From NCBI GenBank assembly GCA_900208305.1, contig OAPG01000008.1, positions 62,001-126,000 of the forward strand: 64,000 nucleotides of DNA, given 5' to 3'. A program made the translations under genes and the position numbers. The notes under the pieces were generated by a model. That model was not told the origin of the DNA and searched no databases. It saw only the letters and a list, made by a program, of their open reading frames with translations. The stretch comes from Melanopsichium pennsylvanicum. Taxonomy: Eukaryota; Basidiomycota; Ustilaginomycetes; Ustilaginales. Of the stretch, positions 45,956-64,000 are shown piece after piece (within the stretch, counting starts at the first letter, position 1; each line of letters opens with the position of its first letter).

Positions 45956-46921
45956 TGTTGAATCGGCTGAGATCCGGTGGGAGAGCATGTCTCGACGGAT
46001 CTCAGGGAGATCTGGTGGATATTGGTGGGCTCATGGGATTTAAGGTTAGCGCAGGACCGAGAAGTTGAATCGGACGAAATCCGGTGAGAGAGCAGGTCTC
46101 AACGGATCTCACGGAAATTCGGCGAGTGGCAGTGACTTGCCGGATATCGAAGGTATCGATGGCAAGGGGAGCATCTGCGATGGCGGCAACCAACGCCACG
46201 CCGGAACGACACGTGGGCCAATCGACGCCCAGGGGGCAACGGAGAGGGAGCACGCGGGCGTGCTCGGAAGCACCCTGCCGAAGGACTAGGGGGCGGTCTT
46301 ATCGTGCGGGGGGTCCAAGCTCGACGCACGCAGGTCGTACAGTACCGATGGACCTCGCACACGATACATATATATAAATACTCTGTTCCCCGCTATCGGA
46401 TGAGCGGAAGCTCATCCACTCTATCTTATATCTCAGTCACACATAGTTATCAGTACGTCGTACTTACCATACTCTTCACACGTCGCACATCGCAATACCA
46501 TTTATTGCGATCCATATAGTCTGTGTCCCCGTCGGTGAACGGAGAACAACGTATAGATGTCGTCGACACCACAATCGACGCTGTAGCACCTCAACTACAG
46601 GCGGAACCTCAACCGCGGGCCTGGCACCACAACCAGTCCCTCATAACTCCACCGGCGACGACGGCTGAGGTCTAACCCAGCCATCAGCAGTATCCCGTCG
46701 ACGTCGTGACACTCGCGTCGACCGAATACCCAGTCCGAGCTTGCCGCGTTACCTCTGTACGGAGTGTCACCAGCGGTCAGCCGATATCTGTCGAGAGATC
46801 GCCACTCGCGGGATTCTCTTCGATATCCGTTGAGGCCAAGCTTAACCGCCGGAACTCACCGAAATCCGGCGAGTCGCGCATTCTCACGGGAATTCGGATC
46901 TCTGGCACGCGACCGCTGACA
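45956..46921 (+). mobile_element. Putative 5' LTR of element B (Ty3/gypsy host element)
   Basis: The right end is set by comparison with element A: both have '..TGACA' followed by TTAGAGTGGATCGT(A/T)CAAG just before gag. The left end (TGTTG at 45956) is a guess from LTR end rules (TG...CA) and expected length (966 bp; A's LTRs are 1041 and 1103 bp). A strong TATA box, TATATATAAATA, lies at 46369-46380, and the following 150 bp are similar to the transcribed region of A's LTR (shared 'TCATCCACTCTA' block). The 3' partner is beyond the window, so a target duplication cannot be tested. Confidence 0.6.
46369..46380 (+). promoter_or_regulatory. TATA box of element B LTR
   Basis: TATATATAAATA inside the putative LTR, at the position homologous to the TATATA of element A's LTR. 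It is the likely start of element transcription. Confidence 0.6.
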
Positions 46922-47071
46922 TTAGAGTGGATCGTACAAGCGACGCCCCAAGTTCACCAAGATGGCCGACTCTGCACTACATGACAGACTCGACCGCCTC
47001 ATTGCCCTCCTTGAGCAGCAGCAGGTAGACAATGCCGCCCTCAAGGCTCGGCTTGACCAACAGGAGACTCC

Positions 47072-48174
47072 TGTCAGGGGGCGTTGTGCCAAACTCAAGC
47101 TTCGCGCCGAGATCCGCTGAAACCGTCTGTTTTAGCGTGTTTGAGATTGAGACCTGATAAGCAGACCGGTTCTATTGTGTTTTGCTATGAGACCTGCTGC
47201 GCAACTCTTGAGCTGACTGACCACTGTGAACACTCCGTTCAGAGGTAATGCGGCTCGTCTGTGTGTTGTAAGACCTTCACGATGCACAAGTGCTCTTGAT
47301 GCAAGTGTTGGTCACCGTCAGGGACTGCTTTGGATGGTCTTGAAGCTGTCGTGATAATGAATTGGCTACGGTGGAGGTTCCGTGACCGCGGTTGAGGTTC
47401 CGCCTACAGTTGAGGTGCTGTAGTGTCAGTGATGGTGCTGACAATCGTCGATGAAGCTTGTCTCCTTATACTGAGGAGAACACAGACACTGGATAGCTGC
47501 AATACCGTATGATTGCAGCTGCTGACGAGAACTATATACTGAGTAACTGATAACGACTTGTAAAGTAAAGACTGGGTTAATATAAAGTAGAGTGGATGAG
47601 TCCCGCTCCTCCACGACTGTAAAGACTGTGTTCTTATATACCTATGGCCCTCCAGGGGCTCCCCTTTGTCCGCTATGACCCTGGTACACCAGAGTATCAA
47701 TGGCCACCAGAGTTTCGACGTGTCCGCGAGCTTGGGCCCCGTGCTAGTCAATGCCGACTGTCATCAACTATGACAACCACGAGCTTGGGCCCTGTGTTAA
47801 ACAATGCCGACTGCCCTCAACTATGACAACCACGAGCTTGGGCCCCGTGTTAAACAATACCAACTGCCAGCAACCATGTCGCCCTTGAGCTTGGGCCCCG
47901 TGCTAACCAGTGCTGGCTGTCAGCAACCATGACACACACAGCGGACGGTAGCTTGGGCCCCGTGCTAACCAGTGCTGGCTGTCAGCAACCATGACACACA
48001 CAGCGGACGGTCCTACATCATGTTGCACCCTTCCATCAGGCCTCCTGTACCAGACGGAGGCTGTCAGAGGGCGTTGCACTGATATCGGGTGAAACCACGT
48101 GTTCTAGCGGATGTCAACCTGAAACCCGATAGAACACAGTGTTTCACCGGGTTTGAAATCCACCTCCGGTAACA
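47072..48174 (-). repeat. 3' LTR of element A
   Basis: 1103 bp. It contains a tandem array of about 53-62-bp units, each starting near GAGCTTGGGCCC, with five copies (about 47722-48012). The matching LTR has four copies. Confidence 0.93.
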
Positions 48175-48639
48175 CTACCCCCCTTCCAAGAACCGAGCTC
48201 CTGCGAGGTAATGAAGTCCGGCGGCGCAGAGAACTTAGCTCCTACCAGCCCTTATCCTCGGTGTACAACTCTTCTTTTGCAATGGTCTTCATCATCTATT
48301 CCTATATCACCACGATCCTCCTGTGCAATCTTAATGCAACAGACTCGCCTGTATCATGTTGTAATTGCAATGTCTTGTTCCTTCTTACCATGTTTGTGTT
48401 GAAAAGCCTGTGACGTCGCCAACCGTTGCCTTCCACTTTCAGCCCCGGTGTATGAGATCCGATAGAATTACCACTTTAAGCGGGTTTCAACTGAGATCGG
48501 CTGCAGAGGGTTGTTTTATCGGATTTCAACTGAATTCGGATAAAACAGCGCGTTTTACCGGGTCTGAGATTCAAACCTAGCTTTCGCGATGCTTTGTCCC
48601 AAGGCAATCCGGGGCGGTTTTATGGTACTTCTACGCCGT

Positions 48640-48775
48640 CCCCCCCTCCAATCGCTCATACTCCTGGATGAGTTGGGGGGCGTTGACCGCCTCTGCTGGT
48701 TCCCATGAAGCTGCTTCCTCGGGATACCCTTTCCACTGGACCAAGTATTCCACTGGTTGGTATCGTCGTCCTTAA
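48640..48775 (-). pseudogene. Chromodomain remnant of element A
   Basis: In a frame different from the upstream RT/RNase H frame, the minus strand encodes 'VEYLVQWKGYPEEAASWEP' followed by 'LIQEYERL', the core of a chromodomain. It shows that the parent of A was a chromovirus and that an internal deletion removed the integrase and shifted the frame. Confidence 0.8.
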
Positions 48776-51100
48776 CCGGGTCTCAAGTTGAGATCCGGTG
48801 GTTGTACCATGTTTTATCCGATTTCGCGTCAAAATCGGGTAAGCTACCACGCTTTCATGCTGATTTGGATTTCCTTCCGGCGATTCAAACACGCTTGCCG
48901 GCAGCAGCTGCCGCATGTTGTGCTCTTTCTCCATTCCTGCCGGTTGCATGTCCGATCGCCGAGTGAGTGCATCAGGCTCTCCACCTTTGTTGCCAGGCCT
49001 GTAATGTAGCACAAAGTCGTAGTCGGCGAGCACTACCGCCCAGCAAGCTTGTCGCCCGTTTATACGCCTCTGTGACTTGAAGTATTTGAGGGCTTCATGA
49101 TCCGTGTAGATGACCAGCTGACTTGGCAATCCTGCCAGCATATGTCGCCATTGCTGCAGGCACGCCACGACGGCGAGGAGTTCCTTATCATGGATCTCAT
49201 AGTTCCTTTCGGCTGGTTGCATCTTTCTTGAGTAATAGGCCACAGGGTGCCAACGTTTCTTGTGCTCCTGCTTCAAGACTCCTGCTATGGCAAAATCGCT
49301 AGCGTCAGTCTCTAGGCGAGTCGGCAGATGGTAATCGAAATGCTTGAGTACTCCGGCCGTTGTGAAGGCCTCAATGAGCTTGTGGAAAGCGTGTTGGGCA
49401 TCCTCTGACAGCTCAAACTTCTTGAACCTCTCCGTCGGCTTGACCAACGAGGTGAGAGGCCTTGCAATTCGTGCAGAATGAGCAATGAACCTCCTATAGA
49501 AGTTGGCAAACCCTAGGAATCGCTGGATATTGTGTATAGAGGCTGGCATCGGCCACTCCTGAATGGTTTGTACCTTCTCGGGGTCCATTTCAATCCCTCC
49601 TGGCTTAATGATGTACCCCAGGAACTCGACCTGATCTGTATGGAAAGTGCATTTTGAGAGCTTGGCAAAGAGCCGGTTGGCTCGAAGCCTCTCCAAGACC
49701 TCCCGGACGTGATCGATGTGCTCCTCCTCATTGTTGCTGAAGATGAGGAAGTCATCCAGATATACGACAACAAACACGCCAATGATGTCTCTATAGATAC
49801 TGTTGATCAGAGACTGGAAATGCGATGGTGCGTTGGCCAACCCGAACGGCATCACCAAGTACTTGTACAATCCGAGCTGAGTACCAAAAGCTGTTTTCCA
49901 TTCATCGCCGTCTGCGATGCGAACCAGGTTATATGCAGCCTTAAGGTCCAGCTTAGTATATACCTTTGCATTACGAAGTAAGAATAGTTGCTCCTCAATG
50001 AGGGGCAGCGGCGCTCTATTCTTAATTGTGATCTCATTGAGACCACGGTAGTCGACGCAGAGACATAGGCTCCCGTCCTTCTTGGGCACAAACAGGACTG
50101 GCGAGCGTGCAGGGCTCTTCGACGGTCGAATGAATCCCTTTGCGAGGTTCTCGTCAAGGTACTTGCGCAGTTCCTCCATCTCCTTAGGACCCTTCAGATA
50201 GAGCGGGCCTTGAGGAGGTTTTGCTCCCAATTCGAGCTCTATCTTGAGGTCGTGTTCGGTCCGGTGGGGTAGCTTGTCTGCTTCGACCTCGTTAAAGACC
50301 TCGGCAAGGTCCTGGTAAGGCTCCGGTACCTGCTCCGGGGGCTTGTCCTTCTCAACTTCCATGTCAACCCCTTTGTCTGCCCCGGTAGGGACAAACCCAA
50401 AGGCTGGCAACGACGTTGCCGGAACGTCGAGAAGCATGAACCCAATGGGTCCATCTTCAACGGCAGCCCTTAGAAGCTGCTTGGCCGATACAAACTCGTG
50501 ACCGTGGAGTTTGAAGTCCAGAACCGGCACCCTGTTCTGGCGGGTTTTGGTTGAAATCCGCTGAACTGACCCGTCCTGTCGGGTCTCGTTTGAAATCCGA
50601 TAAAACGCGTTGTTTAATCGGGTTTTGTGTGGGGCCCCGGTTTGTGGAGTAAATTCGCAGGGTTTGGCGTTCGTTGTCATCCCAAACTCCACTCAACCTT
50701 CCTCCCAATTGATTGAGGGTCGGAGCTTACGCAACTGATCATAGCCTATGATAAGGTCGTAATCCGCCGCCTCGGCGACCGCTACTTCCACCTGTCCCAG
50801 TGAATAGTGGTCGATACTTACCTGTACAACGGCGGTATGGTCTATGTACATCTTGTGACCCGTTACGCCGTGAATCGATCTTGTTTTTGTAGGTTTTGTG
50901 GTTATCTTGTGGTCCGAAACAAATGCTTGTGAAAGTATAGACAAGCCAGCACCGGTATCCGCGAGTATGCGAGCTCCATGGCCCTCAACGGTGCCCTTGA
51001 GTTCGAGTACCGAGGAACCCGATGTGGCTGTGAAACAGAATTGGCAGTCTTGAGCAATGCATTGCGATGGCATAGGTGGTTGTAGGGCAAGACACGCCAT
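48656..51100 (-). pseudogene. Pol of element A (protease, RT, RNase H; integrase lost)
   Basis: It starts at an ATG at 51100 that overlaps the gag stop (TGATG). The protease has ADTGAGLSIL. An in-frame TGA at 50695-50693 splits the frame just after protease; the equivalent region of element B has no stop. The RT is well preserved, with 'LFVPKKDGSL', 'MPFGLANAPSHFQ' and catalytic YLDD. RNase H has 'TDASDFAIAGVL', 'YEIHDKELLAVV' and 'YTDHEALKYF'. Beyond 'RPGNKGGEPDALTRR' the homology ends; a short unrelated tail leads into the out-of-frame chromodomain remnant. It is not functional as it stands. Confidence 0.88.
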
Positions 51101-52578
51101 CAGTGTGCTGCCCCACGCTCGTTTCCCTGCCTGTCGTCAGGATCTCCTTCGGGGTTACTCGTGCCTTCGTCGTCATAGACTGCGGCTTCTAGGTCCAGCT
51201 GGGGCTCGCCCTCGTAATTGGCCTCCTCAGGTTCCTGCTGTATATCCTCCCTGCCTTCCTCATCTGCGATGACAATGTTCGCTCCCACACGGGGTCCTGA
51301 TGGCCTGACGACCGCATGAGTTGTCTTTTGAGGACAGTTGTTGGACCAGTGGCCTGGCTTCTTGCAGATGTAGCAAGTGTCACTCCCCACGGTTGTGGGT
51401 CCAGCTCGAGCAGGGGTGCGTGGAGCCAGGTGGGGAGGCGGCGCCCGATTGGCAATTGGTATACCCTGAGGGGTATAGCTGGCCCTTGGAGCTTGCTGGG
51501 CTGGCTTGGGCGTGGCCTGGAGTCCTCCAACGGGTCTGTTAACGGCCATCGGTGGGCCAGATGGCATGTACGCCGGCCTGGACGACTCCGTTGGTGGAAT
51601 CGAGTGCCATCGTTGGGCTTGCTGGTTTACCACCCGCTGCCGGTCGATGGCTTCAACCTCGGCGTACCACTCCCAAAGCGATGGGGGTGGGCTTTGCTCG
51701 AACTTCTCCTGCAGGCTGCGAGAGAGTCCCGAGCGGAAGTAGTACTTTGCGAGCTCCTGGTCGCCAATGTTGGCTCGGCCTTCAAGGTCCCTAAACCGTT
51801 CAAGGTACCTGGTGGCCGTGCCGGGACAGTCATCCTGCATACGCAGCTTCTGAAGCTCCGTGATGGCCTCAAGCCTCAGGTCTCGCTGTCCATATTGTTC
51901 CTTGAGTCTCTGTGTGAACATATTCCAGTCGTTGAAGAGGATGCCTTGCTGTTGGCGGTCGGCCCTTAGCTTAGACTTCCACCATTCTCGAGCACTGCCC
52001 TCGAGGAACTGACTGGTGTAAGCGACCATCTTACCATGGTCCCGGATACCCTTCATCCTGAACCACCACTCAGCCTCGATGAAGAACATGTCCATATCCT
52101 TGAGGTCCATCTTCGGGAACGGGGTCTTGAGTTCCGTTGGCCACTTGGCCTCCTTGTCGTCTTTCGACTGCGGGGCTGACTCTCCAGGCGGCCTACTTAC
52201 CACTGCTTCGGTGGCCAATCCTAAGGCCGGGGGGAGTTCCGTGGGCGCAACCTGTCGTCTAGCCCCGGTTGGGGTAGAGTAGAGCTCGTACAAGCGAGCT
52301 CTGTTGCCCTTGTCGTCGTCTGGCCGGTTTCGGGCCGTAGGCGTCGGTGTCTCCGGCTCTGGGCGGTATGATACCTCCAGGCGGACGAGCACACGTTCCA
52401 CCAACGACTGGAGTCTGTCGATGCTCTGGTCCGTCCTCTTTTGTTGGGCTTCAACTTCCTCGATGTGATTCTTGAAGTCTTTCATCTTTGTCAGTAATTG
52501 ACCCGTGGTGTCATAGAGCGTCTGGAACAGGGGTCGTCCCGTCTGCTCTGGAGTCCGGGGTTGGGATTCGTCTGTCAT
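51100..52578 (-). CDS. Gag of element A
   Basis: 492 residues from the ATG at 52578 (the frame opens upstream into the LTR). The capsid region resembles that of element B ('EGSAREWWKSKLR', 'LKEQYGQRDLRLEA', 'YFRSGLSRSLQEKFE'). The nucleocapsid carries one CCHC knuckle, CYICKKPGHWSNNC. A coiled-coil-like N-terminal segment covers about residues 15-65. The stop codon TGA overlaps the pol ATG as TGATG. It is open throughout and may still be expressed. Confidence 0.88.
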   Translation of the reverse strand: MTDESQPRTPEQTGRPLFQTLYDTTGQLLTKMKDFKNHIEEVEAQQKRTDQSIDRLQSLVERVLVRLEVSYRPEPETPTPTARNRPDDDKGNRARLYELYSTPTGARRQVAPTELPPALGLATEAVVSRPPGESAPQSKDDKEAKWPTELKTPFPKMDLKDMDMFFIEAEWWFRMKGIRDHGKMVAYTSQFLEGSAREWWKSKLRADRQQQGILFNDWNMFTQRLKEQYGQRDLRLEAITELQKLRMQDDCPGTATRYLERFRDLEGRANIGDQELAKYYFRSGLSRSLQEKFEQSPPPSLWEWYAEVEAIDRQRVVNQQAQRWHSIPPTESSRPAYMPSGPPMAVNRPVGGLQATPKPAQQAPRASYTPQGIPIANRAPPPHLAPRTPARAGPTTVGSDTCYICKKPGHWSNNCPQKTTHAVVRPSGPRVGANIVIADEEGREDIQQEPEEANYEGEPQLDLEAAVYDDEGTSNPEGDPDDRQGNERGAAH

Positions 52579-52614
52579 ATTGGCGAGGGGCACTACTTGA
52601 ACGATCCACTCTAA

Positions 52615-53655
52615 TGTCAGGGGGCGTTGTGCCAAACTCAAGCTTCGCGCCGAGATCCGCTGAAACCGTCTGTTTTAGCGTGTTTGAGATTGAGACCTGA
52701 TAAGCAGGCCGGTTCTATTGTGTTTTGCTATGAGACCTGCTGCGCAACTCTTGAGCTGACTGACCACTGTGAACACTCCGTTCAGAGGTAATGCGGCTCG
52801 TCTGTGTGTTGTAAGACCTTCACGATGCACGAGTGCTCTTGATGCAAGTGTTGGTCACCGTCAGGGACTGCTTCGGATGGTCTTGAAGCTGTCGTGATAA
52901 TGAATTGGCTACGGTGGAGGTTCCGTGACCGCGGTTGAGGTTCCGCCTACAGTTGAGGTGCTGTAGTGTCAGTGATGGTGCTGACAATCGTCGATGAAGC
53001 TTGTCTCCTTATACTGAGGAGAACACAGACACTGGATAGCTGCAATACCGTATGATTGCAGCTGCTGACGAGAACTATATACTGAGTAACTGATAACGAC
53101 TTGTAAAGTAAAGACTGGGTTAATATAAAGTAGAGTGGATGAGTCCCGCTCCTCCACGACTGTAAAGACTGTGTTCTTATATACCTATGGCCCTCCAGGG
53201 GCTCCCCTTTGTCCGCTATGACCCTGGTACACCAGAGTATCAATGGCCACCAGAGTTTCGACGTGTCCGCGAGCTTGGGCCCCGTGCTAGTCAATGCCAA
53301 CTGTCATCAACTATGACAACCACGAGCTTGGGCCCTGTGTTAAACAATGCCGACTGCCCTCAACTATGACAACCACGAGCTTGGGCCCCGTGTTAAACAA
53401 TACCAACTGCCAGCAACCATGTCGCCCTTGAGCTTGGGCCCCGTGCTAACCAGTGCTGGCTGTCAGCAACCATGACACACACAGCGGACGGTCCTACATC
53501 ATGTTGCACCCTTCCATCAGGCCTCCTGTACCAGACGGAGGCTGTCAGAGGGCGTTGCACTGATATCGGGTGAAACCACGTGTTCTAGCGGATGTCAACC
53601 TGAAACCCAATAGAACACAGTGTTTCACCGGGTTTGAAATCCACCTCCGGTAACA
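52615..53655 (-). repeat. 5' LTR of element A
   Basis: 1041 bp, four copies of the GAGCTTGGGCCC-type tandem unit. Followed on the element's own strand by TTAGAGTGGATCG, the presumed primer-binding region shared with element B. Confidence 0.93.
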
Positions 53656-55538
53656 ACTCCCTCCCCTGGTCAACGAGCTAGGGAGCATGATCTAAGCTCC
53701 CCGACCCGTCGAGCCTCGCAGCAGGCGGATGAGTCCTACCTCGGTGGTCTCGAGACACCCACTCCTGCGACTAGACCACACCCTCGGTCCGTCACCTTCG
53801 ACATTCTCGACCGACGAGCGTACACCGACCAAGAAAAGTACGCTACGCCTACTGGACCTCGGTATGTCAAACCGGTGACCCCGGGGGCATGGACCGGCAC
53901 TGGCAGTGAACAGGACACTCAGCCCCACGCGGCCCTCAAGACTCCATTCCCCAAGCTCGACACTCGCGATATTGATATCTTCATTCTCGAGGCCGACGCT
54001 TGGTTCAAGGCTAATGGTGTGTACGACCATACTTCGATGATCCTACACACGGCAGCTCAGCTCGAGGGCACCGCTCGAGAGTGGTGGAAGGGTAAGCTCC
54101 GCGTCGACCGGCATCGTCAAGGGATGCTCTTCCATGATTGGAGCCACTTCACCACTCGACTCAGGGAGCTGTACAATCAGCGCAGCGACAGGGTTGATGC
54201 CTACAACAAACTCCTAGCGTTGAGGCTTATTACCGACACACCAGGAGCAGCAACGCGACATGTCGAGCAATTCCGAGACCTGGCAGCTCAGTGCCACATG
54301 GAGGACCCTGAGTTCGTCATCGACCTCTTCCAAGGGAGCCTTACTCGCTCACTTCAGGAGAAGTTCGAGCGTAACCCACCTGAAGACCAGTGGGCCTGGT
54401 ACCGGGAGGTCGAGGACATTGATCGCCAGCGTATGCGGCATCAGCAGAATGCTGTCCGCTTCGCCTCAACCCCAGCAATCAGGACTGCTCATACCGAACC
54501 GGGCATTCCCCAGAGAACTGGCTCTCGACCGTTGCCCCCTCATCTGGCACAGAAGCTGCCGGTACGGGAAGCACCACCGAGACCTCGCGACGATCGAAGG
54601 GTCGTCCCCGGCCCGACGACATTTAACAGCGACGCTTGTAGGGTCTGCGGCAAGACCGGGCATTGGCAGCGGAACTGTCCAGACGCCAAGCCAACGGTTT
54701 ACCCGGCTAGACCATCAGGACCACAGATGCGAGCGCACGTGGTGTTGGAGTCGGAGAAACCACAGGACGGCTCACCAGAGGAAGGAGACGGAGCTGAAGA
54801 CCATTGCAAAGACGATGGCGGTCTTGAAGACCACTTTGACCCCAACCTCTTCGCCGACGATCACGACGCAGGCGAGCCCTACCACAAGGACGAGGGAAAC
54901 GACCTTGGAGCGATGCAATGATGGCATGCATCGCTCTAAGACCGCCTTCGCCATCACCTTGTATATGTCAAGATTGTTCATTATGTTTCTCTGCAGCTTC
55001 CGGTGCCTCAGTACTCGAGCTAGCAGGTACGGTCAACCACCATCCTGCTAGCATTCTCGCCGACACCGGCGCTGCATTGTCTATAGTTTCAGCTCCGTTT
55101 GTTCGCAAGTACTCGATAACCACAAAACCCATAAAAAACAGAACTGTACACGGAGTGACCGGACATTCCCTCACGATCACGAGCGCTGCTGACGTCAACG
55201 TAGTCATAGGAGGACAACACCTAGGGATGCTCAAGGTCGCCGTCGCTGACGCTAGCGACTACAATTTCATCCTGGGGTACGATGAACTACGACACCTACA
55301 GCCAAGGGTCCATTGGGATACTGGACAGCTCGATTTCGGAAAAACCAACGAGATCCGGTCAGACGCGGTCGTTCAAGGGATTTCACCGAAATCCGCCGAG
55401 ACCGGCCGATCTGCCGAATCTCGAGCAAACTTAGTAGTACATGGCTACGAGTTCGTCGACGCCAACGAGCTCGTTCAGGCGGCACTACGGGATGGCCCCA
55501 TAGGGGTCATGCTAATCAGCGCTCCTCCGACGTCGCTC

Positions 55539-55968
55539 TGTTAGTGCCTACCAACCGGAGTCCAAAGAGGGGGTGCTCGGCCCCCCTCCCGATTGAGCAA
55601 TTGTCGTGATCGGGCCCCAACCGACCCTCTCCGGACCCCTCGCAGCGGAGCGGTCGGCCTGACACGATCCTCCTACCGCCCAACCGCGGCTGGCTCCTCC
55701 GTACGTAGGATACGACCGTCGGCAACCTAACATTGTAACGCCGCGGTGGGAAGTGACCGATAGTTCCTGTACCTTACCACCCCGCCCCCGCCTGACATGA
55801 GGTTGCCTCCGGACCTCGTCGCATGTATTACTTAGTTAGCTCTATAGCAACGCAGTAGTGTGCTCTGACCCCCGACCGCCTGTGTCGCCCCGCCTACGAC
55901 CTCTCCGTACCCGTAGCCTCCATCCCGGCTGTAGCCGCCCGCGGTATCTAGACCCTACAGCCTTAACA
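55539..55968 (+). repeat. 5' LTR of element C
   Basis: 430 bp, TGTTAGTGCC to GCCTTAACA, the same length as the 3' copy. Confidence 0.95.
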
Positions 55969-56007
55969 TTACATGCGACCTCCCCACGGGACGACGTCGT
56001 AACCAAG

Positions 56008-57243
56008 ATGAGTACACGCTCCAACCGACAAAACCAAACGGACGCCTCCCCCCAAGCGGAGGGAGACGCTCCCACCATCTCCCCCAGCGGAGACGAGCCC
56101 GCCAGCGTTGTTGCACCCTCGGGCGAACCGCCCGCCGCCCTGACCACCTTGGTCCAAGGGCAAGTGGATATCCTGGCGCTTCTGCGTGAAACCTCTGAAC
56201 AACAGCGGCGCATTACCGCTCTGCTAGAGGCCGCCTTCTTCCCCAGGGAGGATCAACCTAGACCGGAGTCTTCTCAGCACTACCAAGGAGCAACCGCTGC
56301 CCAGGTCCCCCCGCCAACCGTAGCCCCCGTCTACGTGGAGGCCGCGCCCCGCGAGCCAGAGATTCGACTCCAGGCTCCGGAATGGGACGGCAGCCAAGAC
56401 AAACTGGAGGACTTCTTGGATCAATGCGAACTCAACTTCGAGGCTAATCCCTCCAAGTTTCCGACGGATGCCCGTCGCATCATGTTTGCCATCGGCAACA
56501 TGACGGGCAAACCACGAACCCGCATTCGCAATGTGCGACAACAGGAGGGGGAGGATCCGCCCTGGATGAGCTCCTGGAGGGCCTTTTGCGCCGACCTCCG
56601 TCGCGTCCATGGCGATCCCGACCCCAGCTACACCGCACGCCTCCAACTGAATGCCCTCTGCCAGAAGGGATCAGTATTGGAGCACGCGGCGGAGTTCATG
56701 TCGCTGACGGCCAAATCGCACCTGACCGACCAGCAGCAGGCGTTGATGCTGTTCGAACAAAGCCTCCGGCCGCGCCTACGGGAAAAGCTCACCCACGTGC
56801 CGATGACCGACATCCGTGACTTCATCAACGCCGCCATTGTCACGGAGCGCCGGATGCAGGTGATACAGGAGGCCACGACAAGACCCGCGGAGTCACAGCT
56901 GCAACACCGACCGCCCCTCCCAGCCGTGACGGCCAAACGAGAGCCCCCGGAGGGACCCCGCAAAATGGAACGACCTCCACTACCGGCCAAGGACCCTACG
57001 CGTGATGCGGCGGAACGCCTCCGCCAGCACCGACGGACCAACGGGCAGTGCTTCGGCTGCGGTGGCAGCGACCATTTGGCCCGTGACTGCCCGAAGGCGC
57101 CCCAAACACAAACTCTCCGGGCACATGCTATTTCATTTGACAACAATTCTGGGACTATACTCGTCAACCCCATGGATGACGGGTCAGCCTCCAACCCCGA
57201 CAGTGACCTATTGGATTCGGAGGATCCCCCGGAGGGAAACTAA
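56008..57243 (+). CDS. Gag of element C
   Basis: 411 residues from the ATG at 56008, 39 nt after the LTR. The N-terminus has an acidic/Pro-rich stretch. The capsid region includes 'EWDGSQDKLEDFLDQCELNF' and 'MLFEQSLRPRLREKL' helices typical of Ty3/gypsy Gag. The nucleocapsid has one CCHC knuckle, CFGCGGSDHLARDC, close to the C-terminus. The last sense codons form a slippery heptamer directly before the TAA, which gives access to the protease frame. Confidence 0.88.
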   Translation: MSTRSNRQNQTDASPQAEGDAPTISPSGDEPASVVAPSGEPPAALTTLVQGQVDILALLRETSEQQRRITALLEAAFFPREDQPRPESSQHYQGATAAQVPPPTVAPVYVEAAPREPEIRLQAPEWDGSQDKLEDFLDQCELNFEANPSKFPTDARRIMFAIGNMTGKPRTRIRNVRQQEGEDPPWMSSWRAFCADLRRVHGDPDPSYTARLQLNALCQKGSVLEHAAEFMSLTAKSHLTDQQQALMLFEQSLRPRLREKLTHVPMTDIRDFINAAIVTERRMQVIQEATTRPAESQLQHRPPLPAVTAKREPPEGPRKMERPPLPAKDPTRDAAERLRQHRRTNGQCFGCGGSDHLARDCPKAPQTQTLRAHAISFDNNSGTILVNPMDDGSASNPDSDLLDSEDPPEGN

Positions 57244-57482
57244 GGGTCGATGGGTTCCTTCGGTCCGAACCCATCGACAACCTAAGCCAGCTCCGGGTGC
57301 TCGCCGCAGCATTCTGGGCAGCCCACCGGACCGACACTCCCGTCGTGGAGCAAGAGGGATCCGTTCTCCGGATCCATCGACACCCTACCTTACCAACCTA
57401 CGAATGCTTGGTAAGCGTCGGCGACACGCAAGGCCTTGCCTTGCTCGATACCGGCGCCACCGACTCTTCATCACCCCCATGA
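57207..57482 (+). pseudogene. Protease of element C, truncated
   Basis: The -1 frame relative to gag encodes 'GLALLDTGATDS' (catalytic motif at 57447-57461), then stops at a TGA at 57480-57482. The expected 40-60 residues between the DTG motif and the 'FITPMTSHDVLLGMDW' C-terminal block are missing, and that block continues in another frame. A deletion of a length not divisible by three explains both facts. Confidence 0.8.
57234..57278 (+). promoter_or_regulatory. -1 ribosomal frameshift signal (gag to pol) of element C
   Basis: A slippery heptamer GGGAAAC (57234-57240) lies in the correct phase (G GGA AAC), immediately before the gag TAA. After a 5-nt spacer comes a perfect 12-bp hairpin: arms 57246-57257 and 57267-57278, with a 9-nt loop. 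Slipping back one base continues into the protease frame, which is open from 57207. Confidence 0.85.
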
Positions 57483-60400
57483 CCTCCCACGACGTGCTGT
57501 TGGGGATGGATTGGATCGAGGCCGCCAGGCCGGAGCCAAACTATACCCTCCGTACGTGGGACCTCCGGGTCCCCCACACCGTCACGGTGCCCTCCAACCC
57601 CAAAATCGAAAAGAACGAACTCCACAACTTGGTCGGCCGGCGACAGCTGGTCTCCACTGAGGAGGACCTGCTGGTCCTCCCAGAACCGGAAGAGGAGCTA
57701 CTGCCCCTCCGAGCTTCCGCGACCAACCTCGCCGTCCTACCGCCAGAGTACCGCAAGTACGCCGACGTCTTCAACGCCGAGAGGGCCGACCAATTGCCTC
57801 CCCACCGCCCACACGACCACGAGATCAACCTGGAGGCTGGCAAAACCCCTCCCTACGGCGCACTCTACTCCCTGTCGCACCGCGAACAAGAGGAGCTCCG
57901 GAACTACCTCCGGAAGATGCAGGCCATTGGCTTCATCCGACCGTCGAGTAGCCAAGCTGCCGCGCCCCTCCTTTTTGTACCAAAGAAGGACGGTTGCCTC
58001 CGGCCGTGTGTGGACTACCGCGCCCTCAACGCCATCACCGTCAAGGATCGCTACCCGATCCCCCTCATCTCCGAACACCTTGATCGGCTGGCGACGGCCA
58101 AGATCTTCACTAAATTCGACCTGAAGGGTGCCTACAACCTCCTCCGGATCGCCCCTGGCCACGAATGGAAGACCGCATTCCGCACGCGCTACGGCAGCTA
58201 CGGATACCTCGTCATGCCGTTCGGCCTCTGCAACGCTCCGGCGACCTTCCAACGGCTCATGAACCACGTGCTGTCGGATCTCTTAGACGTGTCCGTCATC
58301 GTATATCTGGACAACATCCTAGTCTTCTCCGACAACGAGGCCGACCACCACCACCACGTCCGCCAAGTGTTGGATCGACTACGGAAGCATCAGCTGTATT
58401 GCGCTCCGGACAAATGCAAATTCCACACCGACTCCGTCGAGTTCCTCGGCTACCTCGTCAGTCCCGACGGCCTCTCCATGGACCCGACCAAGGTCAACAC
58501 AGTCTTGGAGTGGCCGCCACCACAGTCGATCCGACAGATCCAAGTCTTCCTCGGATTTGCCAACTTCTACCGTCGCTTCATCCGCCACTATTCTCGTGTA
58601 GCGGCCCCCCTCACCGACCTCCTGAAAGGAGGAGCCTCCGGAAAGGTAGATCTGCCCCCGGAAGCAACGGCAGCCTTCAACCGGCTGAAAGAAGCGTTCA
58701 CCTCTGCCCCTATCCTCCGGCACTTCTCTCCAACGCTCTACACCGTCGTCAAAACAGACGCGAGCGATGCTGTGGTAGCCGCCGTGCTGTTGCAGTGGCA
58801 CCCACAGCCGGGCGCCGACGCGAGCGCCGAGCCCAACAGCCGCTCGCATACCCTCCATCCTGTGGCATACTGGTCGCGAAAGATGATCCTGGCGGAGCGT
58901 AACTACGAAATCCACGACAAGGAACTCCTGGCTATCGTAGACGCCTGCGGCGCTTGGAGACACTACCTCCATGGCCTCACCCGACCGTTCCTCATTTACA
59001 CCGACCACCAGGCGCTCCAGTATTTTCAGACAAAGCGACAACTCAACCGTTGCCAAGCCCGCTGGCAAGCCGACCTGGCTGAGTTCGACTTTGTCCTCCA
59101 CTACCGTCCGGGTAAGGAGGCCGTCCGCCCCGACGCTCTGAGTCGCCGGCACGACTTGTTCCCCGACGGACCGTCGCGCCCAGACCCCGCCATCCAAGCC
59201 ACTCTCCTCCCTGCAAACTTGTTTGCAAGGGCAGCCGGCGTACACTCCTTGGACCCCCTGCCTACGGAGTGGATCGAAACCCTCCGGAAAGCGGCCAACC
59301 TCCCCCCAAACGTTGCCGTCCGCAATGGTGTCCCGTACACCACAGAGGGTCACGTCTACCTGCCACCCCAATTACGGGACAAGGCACTCCACCTACTGCA
59401 CGACCACCCTACGGCGGGACATCCTGGCCGCAAGACGACCCTCCATCTCATGCGTCAACGTTTTTACTGGCCAACCATGGTGCAGGACACCAACAGCTAT
59501 GTCGCCTCTTGCGCGGCCTGCCGAAGGGCTAAACACCCCCATCACAAACCCCACGGCTACCTTCTCCCGTCGGTCCCTCCCGATCGGCCGTGGTCCACTA
59601 TTACCATGGACCACATCACTGACCTCCCGCCCTCCCTTGCCAACGGCACCACCTACAACTCCATTCTTGTAGTCGTCGACCGCCTCACCAAGTTTGTGGT
59701 CTTCATTCCTGCAAACAAAACCGATACGGCGGAGACTTTGGCGTACCAGCTCCACCGCTACGTCTTTTCATACTTTGGCCTCCCGGACACCATTGTATCT
59801 GACCGAGGAACCACGTTTGTAGCTTCCGTTTGGACGGAACTCCTCCGGGCCCTCCGGATTAAAGGGTCTTACTCGTCGGCCTACCACCCTCAAACAAATG
59901 GCCAGACCGAGCGAGCCAATCAGACGCTGGAGTTGTTCCTCCGCTTCTATACGGCCTACGACCACAGCGACTGGGCAACCCTCCTGCCGACAGCCCAGCT
60001 CGCGCTGAACCAAAGACCGTTGGCGACCACAACCATCGCCCCGGCTATAGCTTGCTTCACATTTGCACCTCGGGCACACCCCTCCATCCCCCCGGCCACC
60101 TCCAACGTTCCGTCGGCGGATAAAGTGCGGGTGTGCCAGGACGCCATCGCCAAAGCCAACCTTGCCGTCGCGAAGTGGTTTAACCGTTGCAGGAGCGACG
60201 TCTCGTTCCGCCGGGGGGACCTGGTGCTCCTCCGTACCAAGCACCTCCGCAGCGACCGACCCTCCCACAAGCTCTCCAACCCCCTCGCCGGCCCGTTCAA
60301 AGTCGACGAGGTGATTAGCGACCGAGCCTACCGACTCCTCCTGCCTCCGTCGTGGAAGGTCCACCCCGTCTTTCACGTACAGATGCTGGAGCCATACCCC

Positions 60401-60640
60401 GACGGAGTCAGGGAGTCCAGCGACGCCCCCCAACCAACTACTCTGGAGGACGACTACGCCGATTTCGAAGTCGAGGGCGTATTGGACTCCCGCCGCCGCG
60501 CCGGACGCCTACAGTACAAGGTCTCCTGGGTAGGGTACCCCCCAAGCTGGGTCCCGGCGGAAGACGTGGACCGCGCCCCGGATCTGGTCGCTGCGTACCA
60601 CGCCGCGAACCCGACCAAGCCGGCTCCTACCCGGCGTTAG
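57464..60640 (+). CDS. Pol of element C: RT, RNase H, integrase, chromodomain
   Basis: Open to the stop at 60640; the frame is also open upstream to 57002, but that part is a shadow of gag and protease. Domains in order: RT with 'LFVPKKDGCL', 'MPFGLCNAPATFQ' and YLDN (58304-58315) where most relatives have YLDD; RNase H with 'KTDASDAVVAAVL', 'YEIHDKELLAIV' and 'YTDHQALQYF'; integrase with an H-H-C-C zinc motif ('HPTAGHPGRKT' to 'CAACRRAK') and a D,D-35-E core (35 residues between the second Asp in 'VSDRG' and Glu in 'QTERAN'); and a C-terminal chromodomain ('LQYKVSWVGYPPSWVPAED'). It lacks its protease and a proper start, so it depends on the broken upstream frame. Confidence 0.88.
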   Translation, partial: LFITPMTSHDVLLGMDWIEAARPEPNYTLRTWDLRVPHTVTVPSNPKIEKNELHNLVGRRQLVSTEEDLLVLPEPEEELLPLRASATNLAVLPPEYRKYADVFNAERADQLPPHRPHDHEINLEAGKTPPYGALYSLSHREQEELRNYLRKMQAIGFIRPSSSQAAAPLLFVPKKDGCLRPCVDYRALNAITVKDRYPIPLISEHLDRLATAKIFTKFDLKGAYNLLRIAPGHEWKTAFRTRYGSYGYLVMPFGLCNAPATFQRLMNHVLSDLLDVSVIVYLDNILVFSDNEADHHHHVRQVLDRLRKHQLYCAPDKCKFHTDSVEFLGYLVSPDGLSMDPTKVNTVLEWPPPQSIRQIQVFLGFANFYRRFIRHYSRVAAPLTDLLKGGASGKVDLPPEATAAFNRLKEAFTSAPILRHFSPTLYTVVKTDASDAVVAAVLLQWHPQPGADASAEPNSRSHTLHPVAYWSRKMILAERNYEIHDKELLAIVDACGAWRHYLHGLTRPFLIYTDHQALQYFQTKRQLNRCQARWQADLAEFDFVLHYRPGKEAVRPDALSRRHDLFPDGPSRPDPAIQATLLPANLFARAAGVHSLDPLPTEWIETLRKAANLPPNVAVRNGVPYTTEGHVYLPPQLRDKALHLLHDHPTAGHPGRKTTLHLMRQRFYWPTMVQDTNSYVASCAACRRAKHPHHKPHGYLLPSVPPDRPWSTITMDHITDLPPSLANGTTYNSILVVVDRLTKFVVFIPANKTDTAETLAYQLHRYVFSYFGLPDTIVSDRGTTFVASVWTELLRALRIKGSYSSAYHPQTNGQTERANQTLELFLRFYTAYDHSDWATLLPTAQLALNQRPLATTTIAPAIACFTFAPRAHPSIPPATSNVPSADKVRVCQDAIAKANLAVAKWFNRCRSDVSFRRGDLVLLRTKHLRSDRPSHKLSNPLAGPFKVDEVISDRAYRLLLPPSWKVHPVFHVQMLEPYPDGVRESSDAPQPTTLEDDYADFEVEGVLDSRRRAGRLQYKVSWVGYPPSWVPAEDVDRAPDLVAAYHAANPTKPAPTRR

Positions 60641-60822
60641 GCACGGATACGAGCGACGGTCGCCGTCGGGAGACCCCCCGCCGGAGCCAAAACCCCTCCG
60701 GTCCCCGACCTCTGGGGTAGGAGACCCGGTTGGGCTCCCCTCACCCCCACTCCCACACACGGACACACACACACGCAAGCAACAGAAAAGAAAACAAGTG
60801 CATTCGAGGAGGGGCCCCGGGG
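60641..60822. other. Short gap between pol and the antisense gene of element C
   Basis: The two genes converge: the pol stop is at 60640 and the antisense stop codon is at 60823-60825. A CA-rich run (about 60755-60780) lies between, probably within both 3' untranslated regions. Confidence 0.5.
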
Positions 60823-62278
60823 CTAGTCCCTCAGGAAGCCCTCCAACCACGCCCAGACCACGTCCACCTGCTGTCGCGTGTTCTGCGACAGTTGCTGGAT
60901 CTCGCTGATCCGGCGGAGCTCTCGCTCGCCGCCGGTCCTCAGCGACTCTGTCAGCAACAGCGCAGCCACGTCGGCCAGCCCCTGTTGAAATAACTCAGTC
61001 CCCTCCTGCACCCCGTGGAAGAGGGACTCGGCATGCCTTACGGCCGCACCCAGGTCCCCCAGGCCCGTAGCGGACTCCCCCGGCTGGCCTTGGGCCCGCG
61101 CCCGAGTGCGACGCCGCTCTCGGGCAGCCTCGGCTGGACGGTCGGGGCGAGACCTAGCTTGCTTGCGAGCCGCCTCCCGCTCCCGACCCACCGCGCCCAC
61201 CCGAGCCACCTCCTCCCTCAGTTCCTCCTCCTCCTCCGGGATCTCGCCAAGTGTCCTCAGCGACAACCTGACGTTGGGGTGGGGGCGGCGACGCCGACCG
61301 ACCCCTCCGGACCTCCACCTCTCAAGCAAGCACGCGTAAACCCTCATTTGGAGGGGACCTTGGGCGCCGCCAAGTGGTGGGACTGTCGAGGAAAACAAAA
61401 GGAGGAACAAGAGTCAGCCGACCACCCAGGACATCGCGACAGACGCCCGACGGAAATACTTACCGCGCATATCCGCGTCGCAGGGTTGCCCGTGCTGCCC
61501 CTGACACCGACGGCAGCGGAGATCGCCTCCCGCCCGCTCACAGGCAACGCCGGCGCATACGCAGGCGTAGCAATCACCCCACGTCTTGGCCCATAGCGGG
61601 GCAAGATCTGTCGCAGCAGCGACGGAAACACAAACGTCAGTAGCGATCCCAATCAACACAGCAATGGAACAAATACTTACCATCACCAACGAGTTCCGGA
61701 GTGATCTCGATGGGAACCAAAGGACGCAACCACGGCATCGAATTCCGGGGCGCCAGGACAAGGGAAGTGTTGGTCGATGCAGAGGAAGGAATGGCCGACG
61801 GATCGGCAGACTGTTGACGCACGGCGCGCTCGCAACGGCCCGAGTTGGCCCCCCGGGAAAGGTGAGCACGCGGAGAACGGCGCACCCCCCGGATGGGACC
61901 AGCGGAGGTCTCTGACGGCCGATCTGTCGTAATCGAAACAAGGGGGAGGGAACAAATGTCAGTAACCCATTCCACGGCACCGACCGGTGGTTGTCAGACC
62001 CTCTGGGCCCCCCATCCGCAACCGAATCACGACGGAACCACGATCGACTCACCTCCGGAAGCGGGTAACGTTGTTGTTGTTGTTGGTGCTGTTGTTGTTG
62101 TTGCTGCTGCCGCTGTTGCCGACGCTGCCGCCGTCGCGGACGTAGGCGATGGAGGGGGAACGGTACTGACACCGGCCGACGGGTTGTCGGCCGGGGAATC
62201 CATGGAAGCGTCTGCTGGTGGCGACGACATTGCGAAAAAAAGACAATCCAAGGAAGCGTCTGCTGGTGGCGACGACAT
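60823..62278 (-). CDS. Antisense accessory gene of element C: Cys-rich, coiled-coil protein (unknown function)
   Basis: Four exons: 62278-62053, 61923-61681, 61607-61464 and 61382-60823. All three introns are phase 1, with donors GTGAGT, GTAAGT, GTAAGT, CTGAC branch sites and CGACAG acceptors. The joined length is 1173 nt, 390 residues, with no internal stop. Exon 1 codes for a Ser/Pro/Thr/Ala-rich segment, exon 2 for a basic region, exon 3 for a compact Cys cluster (CYACVCAG, GVAC, 'CRRCQGQHGQPC') that could bind zinc, and exon 4 for a charged helix (E/R-rich) ending in a Gln-containing helix likely to coil. A TATA-like TATAA on the minus strand (about 62346-62342) sits about 65 bp upstream of the chosen ATG; in-frame ATGs at 62338 and 62230 are alternatives. 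The family is not recognised; a DNA- or RNA-binding regulator is only a guess. Confidence 0.8.
62183..62278 (-). repeat. 48-bp tandem repeat at the start of the antisense gene
   Basis: Two near-identical units, each starting at an ATG (62278 and 62230) and coding for MSSPPADAS. The second runs on into exon 1. The unit length is a multiple of three, so frame is kept. Confidence 0.75.
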
Positions 62279-62579
62279 TGCAAAAAAAGAATGGGGAAGA
62301 ATGGGGGAAATCGAGAAGGAAGACCCGTCGAACCCCATCCTTATATCCTTCCTCAATAGCTACGCACGAGCAATGGCGCACAGTCAATTCTGCCGGTCCA
62401 AGGCATTGTGGGTGGTATTGCCTCATTGCTGCGCATCCGCGATTAAATTGCCGAGACGAGCGTCGCAACTTGTACAGAGAGGCGCCCCTGGCGCGGATTA
62501 AGGTTGAGGGAGTACGACCCCCCTCGCCCTCCTGTCCTATCAGCCGCCTGGGGACCAGTCGGCCTGAACCGGGGGGTAA

Positions 62580-63009
62580 TGTTAGTGCCTACCAACCGGA
62601 GTCCAAAGACGGGGTGCTTGGCCCCCCTCCCGATTGAGCGATCGTTGTGATTGGGCCCCAACCGACCCTCTCCGGACCCCTCGCAGCGGAGCGGTCGGCC
62701 TGACACGATCCTCCTACCGCCCAACCGCGGCTGGCTCCTCCGTACGTAGGATACGACCGTCGGTAACCTAACATTGTAACGCCGCGGTGGGAAGTGACCG
62801 ATAGTTCCTGTACCTTACCACCCCGCCCCCGCCTGACATGAGGTTGCCTCCGGACCTCGTCGCATGTATTACTTAGTTAGCTCTATAGCAACGCAGTAGT
62901 GTGCTCTGACCCCCGACCGCCTGTGTCGCCCCGCCTACGACCTCTCCGTACCCGTAGCCTCCATCCCGGCTGTAGCCGCCCGCGGTATCTAGACCCTACA
63001 GCCTTAACA
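62580..63009 (+). repeat. 3' LTR of element C
   Basis: 430 bp, preceded by the polypurine tract and followed by the target duplication CGCTC. Confidence 0.95.
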
Positions 63010-64000
63010 CGCTCCCGTCGTTTGGCTTTGTCCCCACGGGAGGCGACAAAGGCATAGAGATGGAAACGACACTAGAAGAGCCTCCCACTGCCGTCGAAAT
63101 CCCAGCCCCGTACTACCCCCTCAAGGATGTATTCGACGAGGTCGAAGCGGACAAGCTTCCCCCTCACACAAAGCACGACTTGCACATCGAGCTACTACCC
63201 AGTTCGACGCCACCCCAAGGTCCGCTATATCTCAAGGGACCTAAGGAGATGGCCGAGCTGAGGAAGTACCTCAAAGAGAATCTCGAGAAGGGATTCATTT
63301 GGCCCTCAAAGAGCCCGGCGCGATCCCCCGTCCTCTTCGTGCCTAAGAAGGACGGCGGCCTGCGACTCTGCGTAGACTACCGCGGTCTCAACGAGGTCAC
63401 GGTTAAGAACCGAGCACCACTGCCCTTAATCAAGGAGCAGCTGTTCCTCCTACGAAAAGCGAAGATCTATACCAAGCTGGACCTAAAGGCAGCTTACAAC
63501 TTGGTTAGGATCGCCGACGGGGACGAATGGAAAACCGCGTTTGGAACTCAACTCGGACTGTATGAGTATCTGGTCATGCCATTCGGGTTGGCAAATGCGC
63601 CCGCGCACTTCCAATCGCTCATCAACACCATCTACCGCGACATCATTGGCGTATACGTGGTAGTATACCTTGACGACTTCCTGATCTTCAGCGACAACGA
63701 GAAGGAACACATCGAGCATGTCAGGACGGTGCTCAGTAGGCTCAAGGTATGGCGGTTATTCACCAAACTCTCGAAGTGCGTGTTCCATACCGATACTGTT
63801 GAGTTCCTCGGCTACATCATCAAGCCGTCAGGTATCGAGATGGACCCCAACAAGATCAGGACTATCAAGGAATGGCCGATGCCGGAGTCTATACACGACA
63901 TCCAACGCTTCCTCGGGTTCGCCAACTTCTATCGCAGATTCATCTCTGACTTTGCACGTATAGCGAGACCGCTCACTTCCCTCGTTAAGCCCACAGAGCG

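Follow-up and report, generated by a model that had tools for sequence, protein, structure and literature searches.

The locus studied here raises the question whether a gene with introns can be carried within a retrotransposon, on the strand opposite to that of its pol gene, and what the product of such a gene might do. The window, meaning the whole stretch of 64 000 nt that was analyzed (C8:62001–126000, that is, contig OAPG01000008.1 of the smut fungus Melanopsichium pennsylvanicum), contains a Ty3/gypsy element flanked by long terminal repeats (LTRs), here called family 1, and on the minus strand of this element, between pol and the 3′ LTR, four exons lying from 62278 to 60823 join into one frame of 390 codons. 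A preliminary description, made from the letters alone, had proposed this four-exon antisense gene, and its model was reproduced with exact coordinates, the full frame, GT..AG ends, phase 1 and a CTGAC motif in each of the introns. That this is a gene, and that purifying selection acts on its exons 3 and 4, is well supported by comparison of the sequences of its copies in the genome (21.1 Mb in 61 contigs were searched).

Exon 1 (62053–62278), which is rich in Ala, Thr and Pro and the most divergent of the exons, begins with an ATG at 62278 and holds a second in-frame ATG at 62230 that would give a product of 374 aa; the first one is part of a tandem duplication of two 44-nt copies, 48 nt apart, and is absent in 13 of the 36 copies aligned below (one of these, L044, having been extracted without that part). 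It is followed by intron 1 (61924–62052, 129 nt, GTGAGT..ACAG, branch TACTGAC), exon 2 (61681–61923), intron 2 (61608–61680, 73 nt, GTAAGT..ACAG, branch TACTGAC), exon 3 (61464–61607, 144 nt), intron 3 (61383–61463, 81 nt, GTAAGT..ACAG, branch GGCTGAC) and exon 4 (60823–61382), which is rich in Arg and Glu, is predicted to form two long C-terminal helices and ends with a TAG stop. Because all introns are in phase 1, exon 3, with its 48 codons, phase 1 at both ends and a cluster of Cys residues, could be skipped without loss of the frame. A putative TATA box of the antisense gene lies outside the LTR at 62341–62345, with TATAA read on the minus strand from 62345, 67 nt before the ATG at 62278; the surrounding GATATAAGGAT, a match to the consensus only, was unchanged in all 35 copies holding that stretch, and the block at 62361–62440, with 0.4% non-majority bases, ranks with the most constant parts of the region.

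A DNA search of the genome, scoring the best candidates only, gave 44 matches; 37 near-full places and five stretches with partial copies were fetched, and 36 copies were aligned, with the truncated L045 and the five partial loci excluded. Among these 36 the donor GT was kept in 35, 36 and 36 copies for introns 1, 2 and 3, respectively, whereas the three acceptor AGs, the three CTGAC branch motifs and the TAG stop were kept in every copy. The start, the spliced frame and all splice sites were together intact in 32, and the four failing copies were each damaged differently (L024 in the intron 1 donor, L027 by a 5-nt deletion, L033 by an internal stop and L034 in the start). It should be kept in mind that the copies are partly non-independent, L031 and L034 being probable segmental duplicates and L013/L014, L025/L028 and L043/L044 being close pairs in the tree. 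Random breakage of the predicted exons in other copies, named beforehand as the outcome that would speak against an antisense coding gene with introns in a smut chromovirus, was thus not what these copies showed, and the earlier judgment that chance is an improbable source of such a structure gains from the same conservation of splice, branch and stop sites.

The pattern of gaps also separated the exons from the introns. In family 1, eight of the nine distinct gap patterns in exons (5, 21, 24, 27, 9, 15, 6, 18 and 9 nt) were multiples of three, as against none of four in introns (1 nt each), and when pooled with the patterns of a second family described below, 9 of 10 in exons and 2 of 12 in introns were divisible by three (Fisher P 0.002). 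That open frames merely arose by chance in GC-rich DNA, for which the overlap of the region with several further long frames could be cited, is contradicted by these gaps, by the conservation among copies and by the selection seen in families 1 and 2, and we regard it as a scarcely credible source of the gene. Two competing frames were considered as products in their own right and rejected, an unspliced minus frame of 289 aa being open in only 5 of the 36 copies and a sense frame of 202 aa in only 17.

For the analysis of selection a simple omega (dN/dS) was replaced by a null that keeps the mutation type and CpG context, because the changes were mostly G>A and C>T, and shifted frames as well as pol served as controls. 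On the terminal branches of the family 1 pol tail, 81 of the 190 changes were G>A and 59 were C>T. With this null, the internal branches of exons 3 and 4 carried 31 synonymous and 37 nonsynonymous changes, as compared to 20.4 and 45.7 expected (together with 1.8 stops), which corresponds to a corrected omega of 0.51 (P 0.004), whereas exon 4 read in the +1 and +2 frames gave 0.77 and 1.80. The pol tail, analyzed in 32 copies after leaving out four of the 36 loci, three of them being too short, gave an omega of 0.45 (P 0.003), with 1.70 and 1.40 in its shifted frames. These P values come from several tests on one data set.

Such frame-specific selection bears on whether the protein is at all what matters. 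In an alternative explanation the antisense transcript would itself be functional, by pairing with the genomic RNA, by feeding host RNA interference (RNAi) or by blocking sense transcription, with the protein being incidental. The genome does encode matches to Piwi/Argonaute (one place) and to RNA-dependent RNA polymerase (RdRP; three loci), so that processing of double-stranded RNA would be possible, and regulatory antisense RNAs are reviewed in sections of PMC10186651. However, both the frame-keeping gaps and the frame-specific purifying selection in exons favor a protein, and pairing has no need of conserved splicing, and we therefore consider a purely RNA-based role quite unlikely. Some link of the gene to RNA silencing, either as a trigger or as a counter-defence, may nonetheless exist, given that both kinds of gene are present in the host.

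With regards to the protein, the preliminary description had pointed out a Cys cluster and a charged helical C-terminus, and both were borne out, the second of them by prediction. The cluster (61480–61572, minus strand, within exon 3) has the spacing C-x2-C-x6-C-x8-C-x2-C-x7-C and is accompanied by a seventh Cys; all seven were invariant in the 34 in-frame copies (L027 and L033 excluded), and the spacing arose in only 67 of 200 000 permutations of the 47 residues of exon 3. Exon 4 contributes 31 Lys or Arg and 27 Asp or Glu among 186 residues, and its structure model has the two long C-terminal helices in a block with a predicted local distance difference test (pLDDT) score of about 73–81, at an overall score of 57.

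The gene does not stand alone in this genome, as spliced genes on the antisense strand are carried by two further families. That of family 2 (read at L051, with ATG at 4724 and stop at 3578) lies downstream of pol, has one intron and encodes a product of 356 aa; its intron (GTAAGT..CTGAC..CCCAG) is positioned within a Cys cluster of the form C-x2-C-x6-C-x20-C-x2-C-x7-C, and the protein reached only E 7.6 and 7.2 bits against PF00172 (cut-off 21). The family 2 gene occurs many times in the genome; in a selection set of 13 copies (12 fetched, and L051) it was open in nine, the exons showed one length pattern (21 nt) and the intron eight (18, 1, 1, 6, 4, 5, 1 and 2 nt), and omega was 0.37 on internal branches and 0.49 at the tips (P < 0.0005), with 0.99–3.03 in shifted frames. 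A TATA-like motif, TTAAATA, was found in all 12 fetched loci, and by eye also in L051; where the modeled start is the usual ATG, as in nine loci, it lay 66–67 nt upstream of that start. The homolog in family 3 is 39% identical to that of family 2 over 188 aa (E 3e-35), and in both the intron falls at an identical phase of the same Pro codon. Six family 3 loci were fetched: at L052 and L053 a two-exon model containing the entire cluster is open, at L055 the model is open but has a replacement of one Cys of the cluster, at L054 and L056 stops shorten the model, and L057 gave no model across the cluster. The antisense gene changes faster than pol, as this 39% compares to a pol identity of 73% between family 2 and P0023; the pol end of P0023 matches a fourth type of element, discussed below as family 4, at 99%.

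By sequence, then, the antisense genes of families 2 and 3 are homologous to each other, but not provably to that of family 1. Position, orientation and splicing are alike in all three, as is the plan W..C-x2-C-x6-C..C-x2-C-x7-C; comparison of the family 1 gene with the other two gave hhalign probabilities that were not significant (0.05 and 0.27 on a scale to 100), and local scores that were reached by 230 of 2000 shuffles for family 2 and by 88 of 2000 for family 3.

A host gene captured by the element, hitchhiking without benefit to it, could have short GT-AG introns with CTGAC such as those seen here. In a six-frame search of the genome, however, no divergent stand-alone gene was found, the matches examined being element copies or fragments, and neither the 32 of 36 copies that are intact and under selection nor the homolog common to families 2 and 3 fits with such a passenger, which makes this origin very improbable.

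How widely the gene is distributed was surveyed at 95 pol ends, recognized by SH3_Tf2-1, by seeking an antisense gene within 3.5 kb downstream among 39, 43 and 8 gene places of families 1, 2 and 3 (one exon per copy, best candidates only). It was present at 74 of the 95 (36 of family 1, 34 of family 2 and 4 of family 3) and not detected at 21, as compared to seven in a same-strand control over the same distance, all from adjacent copies. Four gene-less loci were examined, where L070–L072 were of one kind and L073 was different, with a distant pol. The former three match the family 3 locus L057 on either side of a gap of about 808 bp, which removes the gene except for its extreme ends and has about 20 bp in common at the junction. 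Among the best 40 of 83 candidates, this gene-less junction was spanned at at least 20 places with 99–100% identity, and gene-bearing family 3 pieces were found as at least six right-hand and at least six left-hand ones at 96–97%. The identity of the three junctions that were read makes the loss look like a single deletion event, and the near-identity of the gene-less copies indicates that they are probably recent, although the loss of the gene and the spread of these copies may have coincided by chance.

These gene-less copies also bear on a possible role as a helper in the replication cycle, be it in nuclear import, packaging or choice of integration site. Such a helper could explain why the gene follows pol in 36 loci of family 1 and occupies the corresponding place in families 2 and 3, and the charged helical C-terminus of the model would suit it; yet the gene-less derivative, with open 1291-codon pol frames at several loci, has reached at least 20 copies, and the helper role appears doubtful.

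Our preferred reading, to which we give a probability of about 50%, is that of an accessory chromovirus gene with its own TATA promoter and three introns, encoding a protein of 374–390 aa that is probably a nuclear regulator. Antisense transcription would start from the TATA box between the gene and the 3′ LTR, and splicing through the three introns with subsequent translation would yield a protein in which a zinc-cluster-like motif is followed by a charged helical C-terminus. As they run opposite to the element, the introns would remain unspliced in its genomic RNA, and each new copy would retain the gene. The product would enter the nucleus and bind nucleic acid or chromatin, thereby regulating transcription or copy number of the element, and it would probably be able to act in trans. 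We chose regulation as a first guess because a nuclear location or predicted DNA binding is described for some of the antisense proteins of plant elements and of human T-cell leukemia virus type 1 (HTLV-1), and because HBZ of the latter regulates LTR transcription.

Several results weigh against such a regulator. Neither Pfam, with PF00172, TRP28 (PF04195) and bZIP included, nor the sequences of the PDB gave any match to the product; Foldseek with the exon 4 model returned nothing below E 0.001, its top matches being unrelated helical proteins, and the Cys part of the model was of low confidence. The profile search and structure prediction that had been suggested for this product thus returned the helices, but left the Cys cluster poorly modeled and outside known families. 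The six Cys do follow the C-x2-C-x6-C-xn-C-x2-C-x7-C spacing of the Zn(II)2Cys6 family (PF00172), but membership was rejected, as there was no Pfam match and exon 3 lacks the stricter signature of flanking residues that we take to define that family. An omega below 1, likewise foreseen, was obtained for exons 3 and 4 and did not extend to the rest of the gene, where constraint was not significant on internal branches (1.83 for exon 1 and 0.71 for exon 2). Terminal branches of exons 3 and 4 gave 1.34, as compared to 0.56 for pol. And because at least 20 gene-less copies exist, the gene is dispensable in cis in that lineage.

The behavior of exon 1 could instead be taken to indicate an anti-silencing factor that shields the element from host silencing. 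It is the most divergent exon (mean pairwise divergence 0.049, against 0.020 for exon 4) and has the high internal omega that a conflict would give, while also being of low complexity, and RNAi genes are present in the host. A shielding function is unlikely all the same, as the product matches no known family and the gene-less derivative has spread, unless other copies protect it.

For the nuclear regulator, action in trans is suggested by the combination of terminal branches without constraint, where pol is constrained, and the spread of the gene-less derivative. The contrast with pol on terminal branches suggests weaker constraint on the single copy, as for a trans-acting product, but it may also be that the gene simply matters less. 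In family 2 the gene is under constraint at the tips as well (0.49), which misfits trans action as a general rule. Carried further, and as a tentative extension that we hold to be rather improbable, smut chromoviruses might share an ancient antisense spliced zinc-cluster gene as a self-made brake kept under selection, which one lineage lost by a single deletion and thereby escaped, spreading to 20 or more near-identical copies, and exon 3 could be a cassette giving a cluster-less isoform.

Antisense genes in LTR elements have precedents. In plants, antisense open reading frames (aORFs) are described in passages of PMC7264820 and PMC11963269 for Grande of maize (gene23, with a nuclear product and its own promoter), rice RIRE2 and Retand, the TRP28 protein of which is predicted to bind DNA; according to part of the former review, what such genes do in LTR retrotransposons is unknown. 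The family 1 gene resembles the aORF-3R type in being antisense between pol and the 3′ LTR and in being present in the majority of copies, with conservation like that of the other proteins of the element and with selection in exons 3 and 4 only. It differs in lacking TRP28 or any other Pfam domain and in having three introns, the word intron being absent from both papers, while Retand differs in not being a chromovirus. The HTLV-1 protein HBZ, according to passages of PMC10186651, is a nuclear bZIP protein expressed from the 3′ LTR that lowers 5′ LTR expression. HBZ and APH are like the family 1 gene in being spliced antisense genes located toward the 3′ end of their LTR element, with no relatedness claimed here, and the family 1 gene may by analogy work like HBZ; it differs in having no bZIP match and in its conserved putative TATA box lying outside the LTR.

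Closest is brtn of Boty in Botrytis cinerea, an antisense gene of a fungal Ty3/gypsy element according to passages of PMC7264820, PMC8365987 and PMC4227169. Boty, so far as these passages describe it, shares with family 1 the gag, pol and chromodomain together with an antisense gene between pol and the 3′ LTR; its host, in contrast, is an ascomycete, and brtn was compared here by its description in citing papers only. The original account, known to us through those papers, is reportedly that of Zhao et al. 2011 (Virology 417:248). Of the novelty claimed in the preliminary description, the spliced multi-intron version in a smut therefore remains, whereas an antisense gene in a fungal Ty3/gypsy element was already known, as passages of PMC7264820 and PMC8365987 on brtn attest. 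In the open-access literature that was searched, a minority of it at full text, we found no description of multi-intron antisense genes in elements of smuts or other basidiomycetes; the words antisense and intron do not occur in a survey of fungal LTR retrotransposons (PMC3248453), nor does antisense in a paper on smut retrotransposons (PMC9603552). What appears to be new is thus the multi-intron antisense gene, antisense genes as such being known from plant elements and Boty. The genome pairs gene-bearing families, with their selection, splicing and putative promoter, with a natural gene-deleted derivative of at least 20 copies, and whether antisense genes help, restrain or protect their elements should be directly testable in such a genome.

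Genes of this kind are easily mis-annotated. Two protein searches with the product, scoring only those candidates with the most words in common with it (7990 and 7989), returned the same seven proteins, all from M. pennsylvanicum with MEPE_ numbers, and four of these published models (P0001–P0004) join exon 2 to exon 4 and thereby lose the Cys exon, while P0005 and P0007 retain exon 3 and P0006 is built otherwise. Viral contigs searched with exon 4 and with pol gave no match. In MEPE_01710 (P0007, at L048, C3:505000–509500) exons of the antisense gene are fused with part of a Tudor/SNase-domain gene, and this locus looks like a partial SNase-gene duplicate adjoining an element fragment; an SNase match at C3:189654 scores equally to that of L048. 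In both C3:180022–190484 and C3:496311–506263 an element copy (L031 and L034, respectively) lies 9632 bp from an SNase match of equal score, and the equal spacing points to a segmental duplication.

The family 1 element itself is, by its sequence features, a complete Ty3/gypsy chromovirus, with two LTRs and a target-site duplication, the order reverse transcriptase (RT)–RNaseH–integrase and a C-terminal chromodomain. All its features except the antisense gene and the putative TATA box of that gene are on the plus strand. The LTRs are 430 bp each (55539–55968 and 62580–63009) with seven mismatches between them, and are flanked by CGCTC at 55534–55538 and 63010–63014. Next to the 5′ LTR lies a putative primer-binding site (55969–55980), 10 nt of which are complementary to GTCGCATGTA at 55818 within the LTR; this pairing with its own LTR suggests self-priming of the type that we take Tf1 to use. 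The gag frame (56008–57243) matched Retrotrans_gag barely above the Pfam cut-off, and Ty3_capsid and zf-CCHC barely below. In pol (57470–60640) the RT, RNaseH, integrase, SH3 and chromodomain were recognized, with PF00078, PF17917, PF17921, PF00665, PF24626 and PF00385 above the cut-off. The protease stretch immediately upstream of the pol frame is broken in the window copy, and published gag-pol models of family 1, longer than the frames of this copy, exist. A purine-rich tract (62565–62579) adjoins the 3′ LTR.

The element is part of a triple nest (46001–63009 and L051:1–5838), in which a family 2 chromovirus holds both a family 4 element and the family 1 element (55539–63009). The gag and protease part of the family 2 host (53875–55533, plus strand) ends at the family 1 insertion and its pol frame resumes at 63060, with its antisense spliced gene located beyond the window at C8:128578–129724. 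The family 4 element (47072–53667, minus strand) is a gene-deleted derivative of family 3, with the gene-less junction stretch at 48091–48511. Window positions 46001–46921 match L051:4918–5838 at 99.8%, these being two LTRs of the family 2 element. The pol of family 1 is 44% identical to that of its family 2 host over 1040 aa, and two ENA proteins (P0012 and P0013) are 70–72% identical to it.
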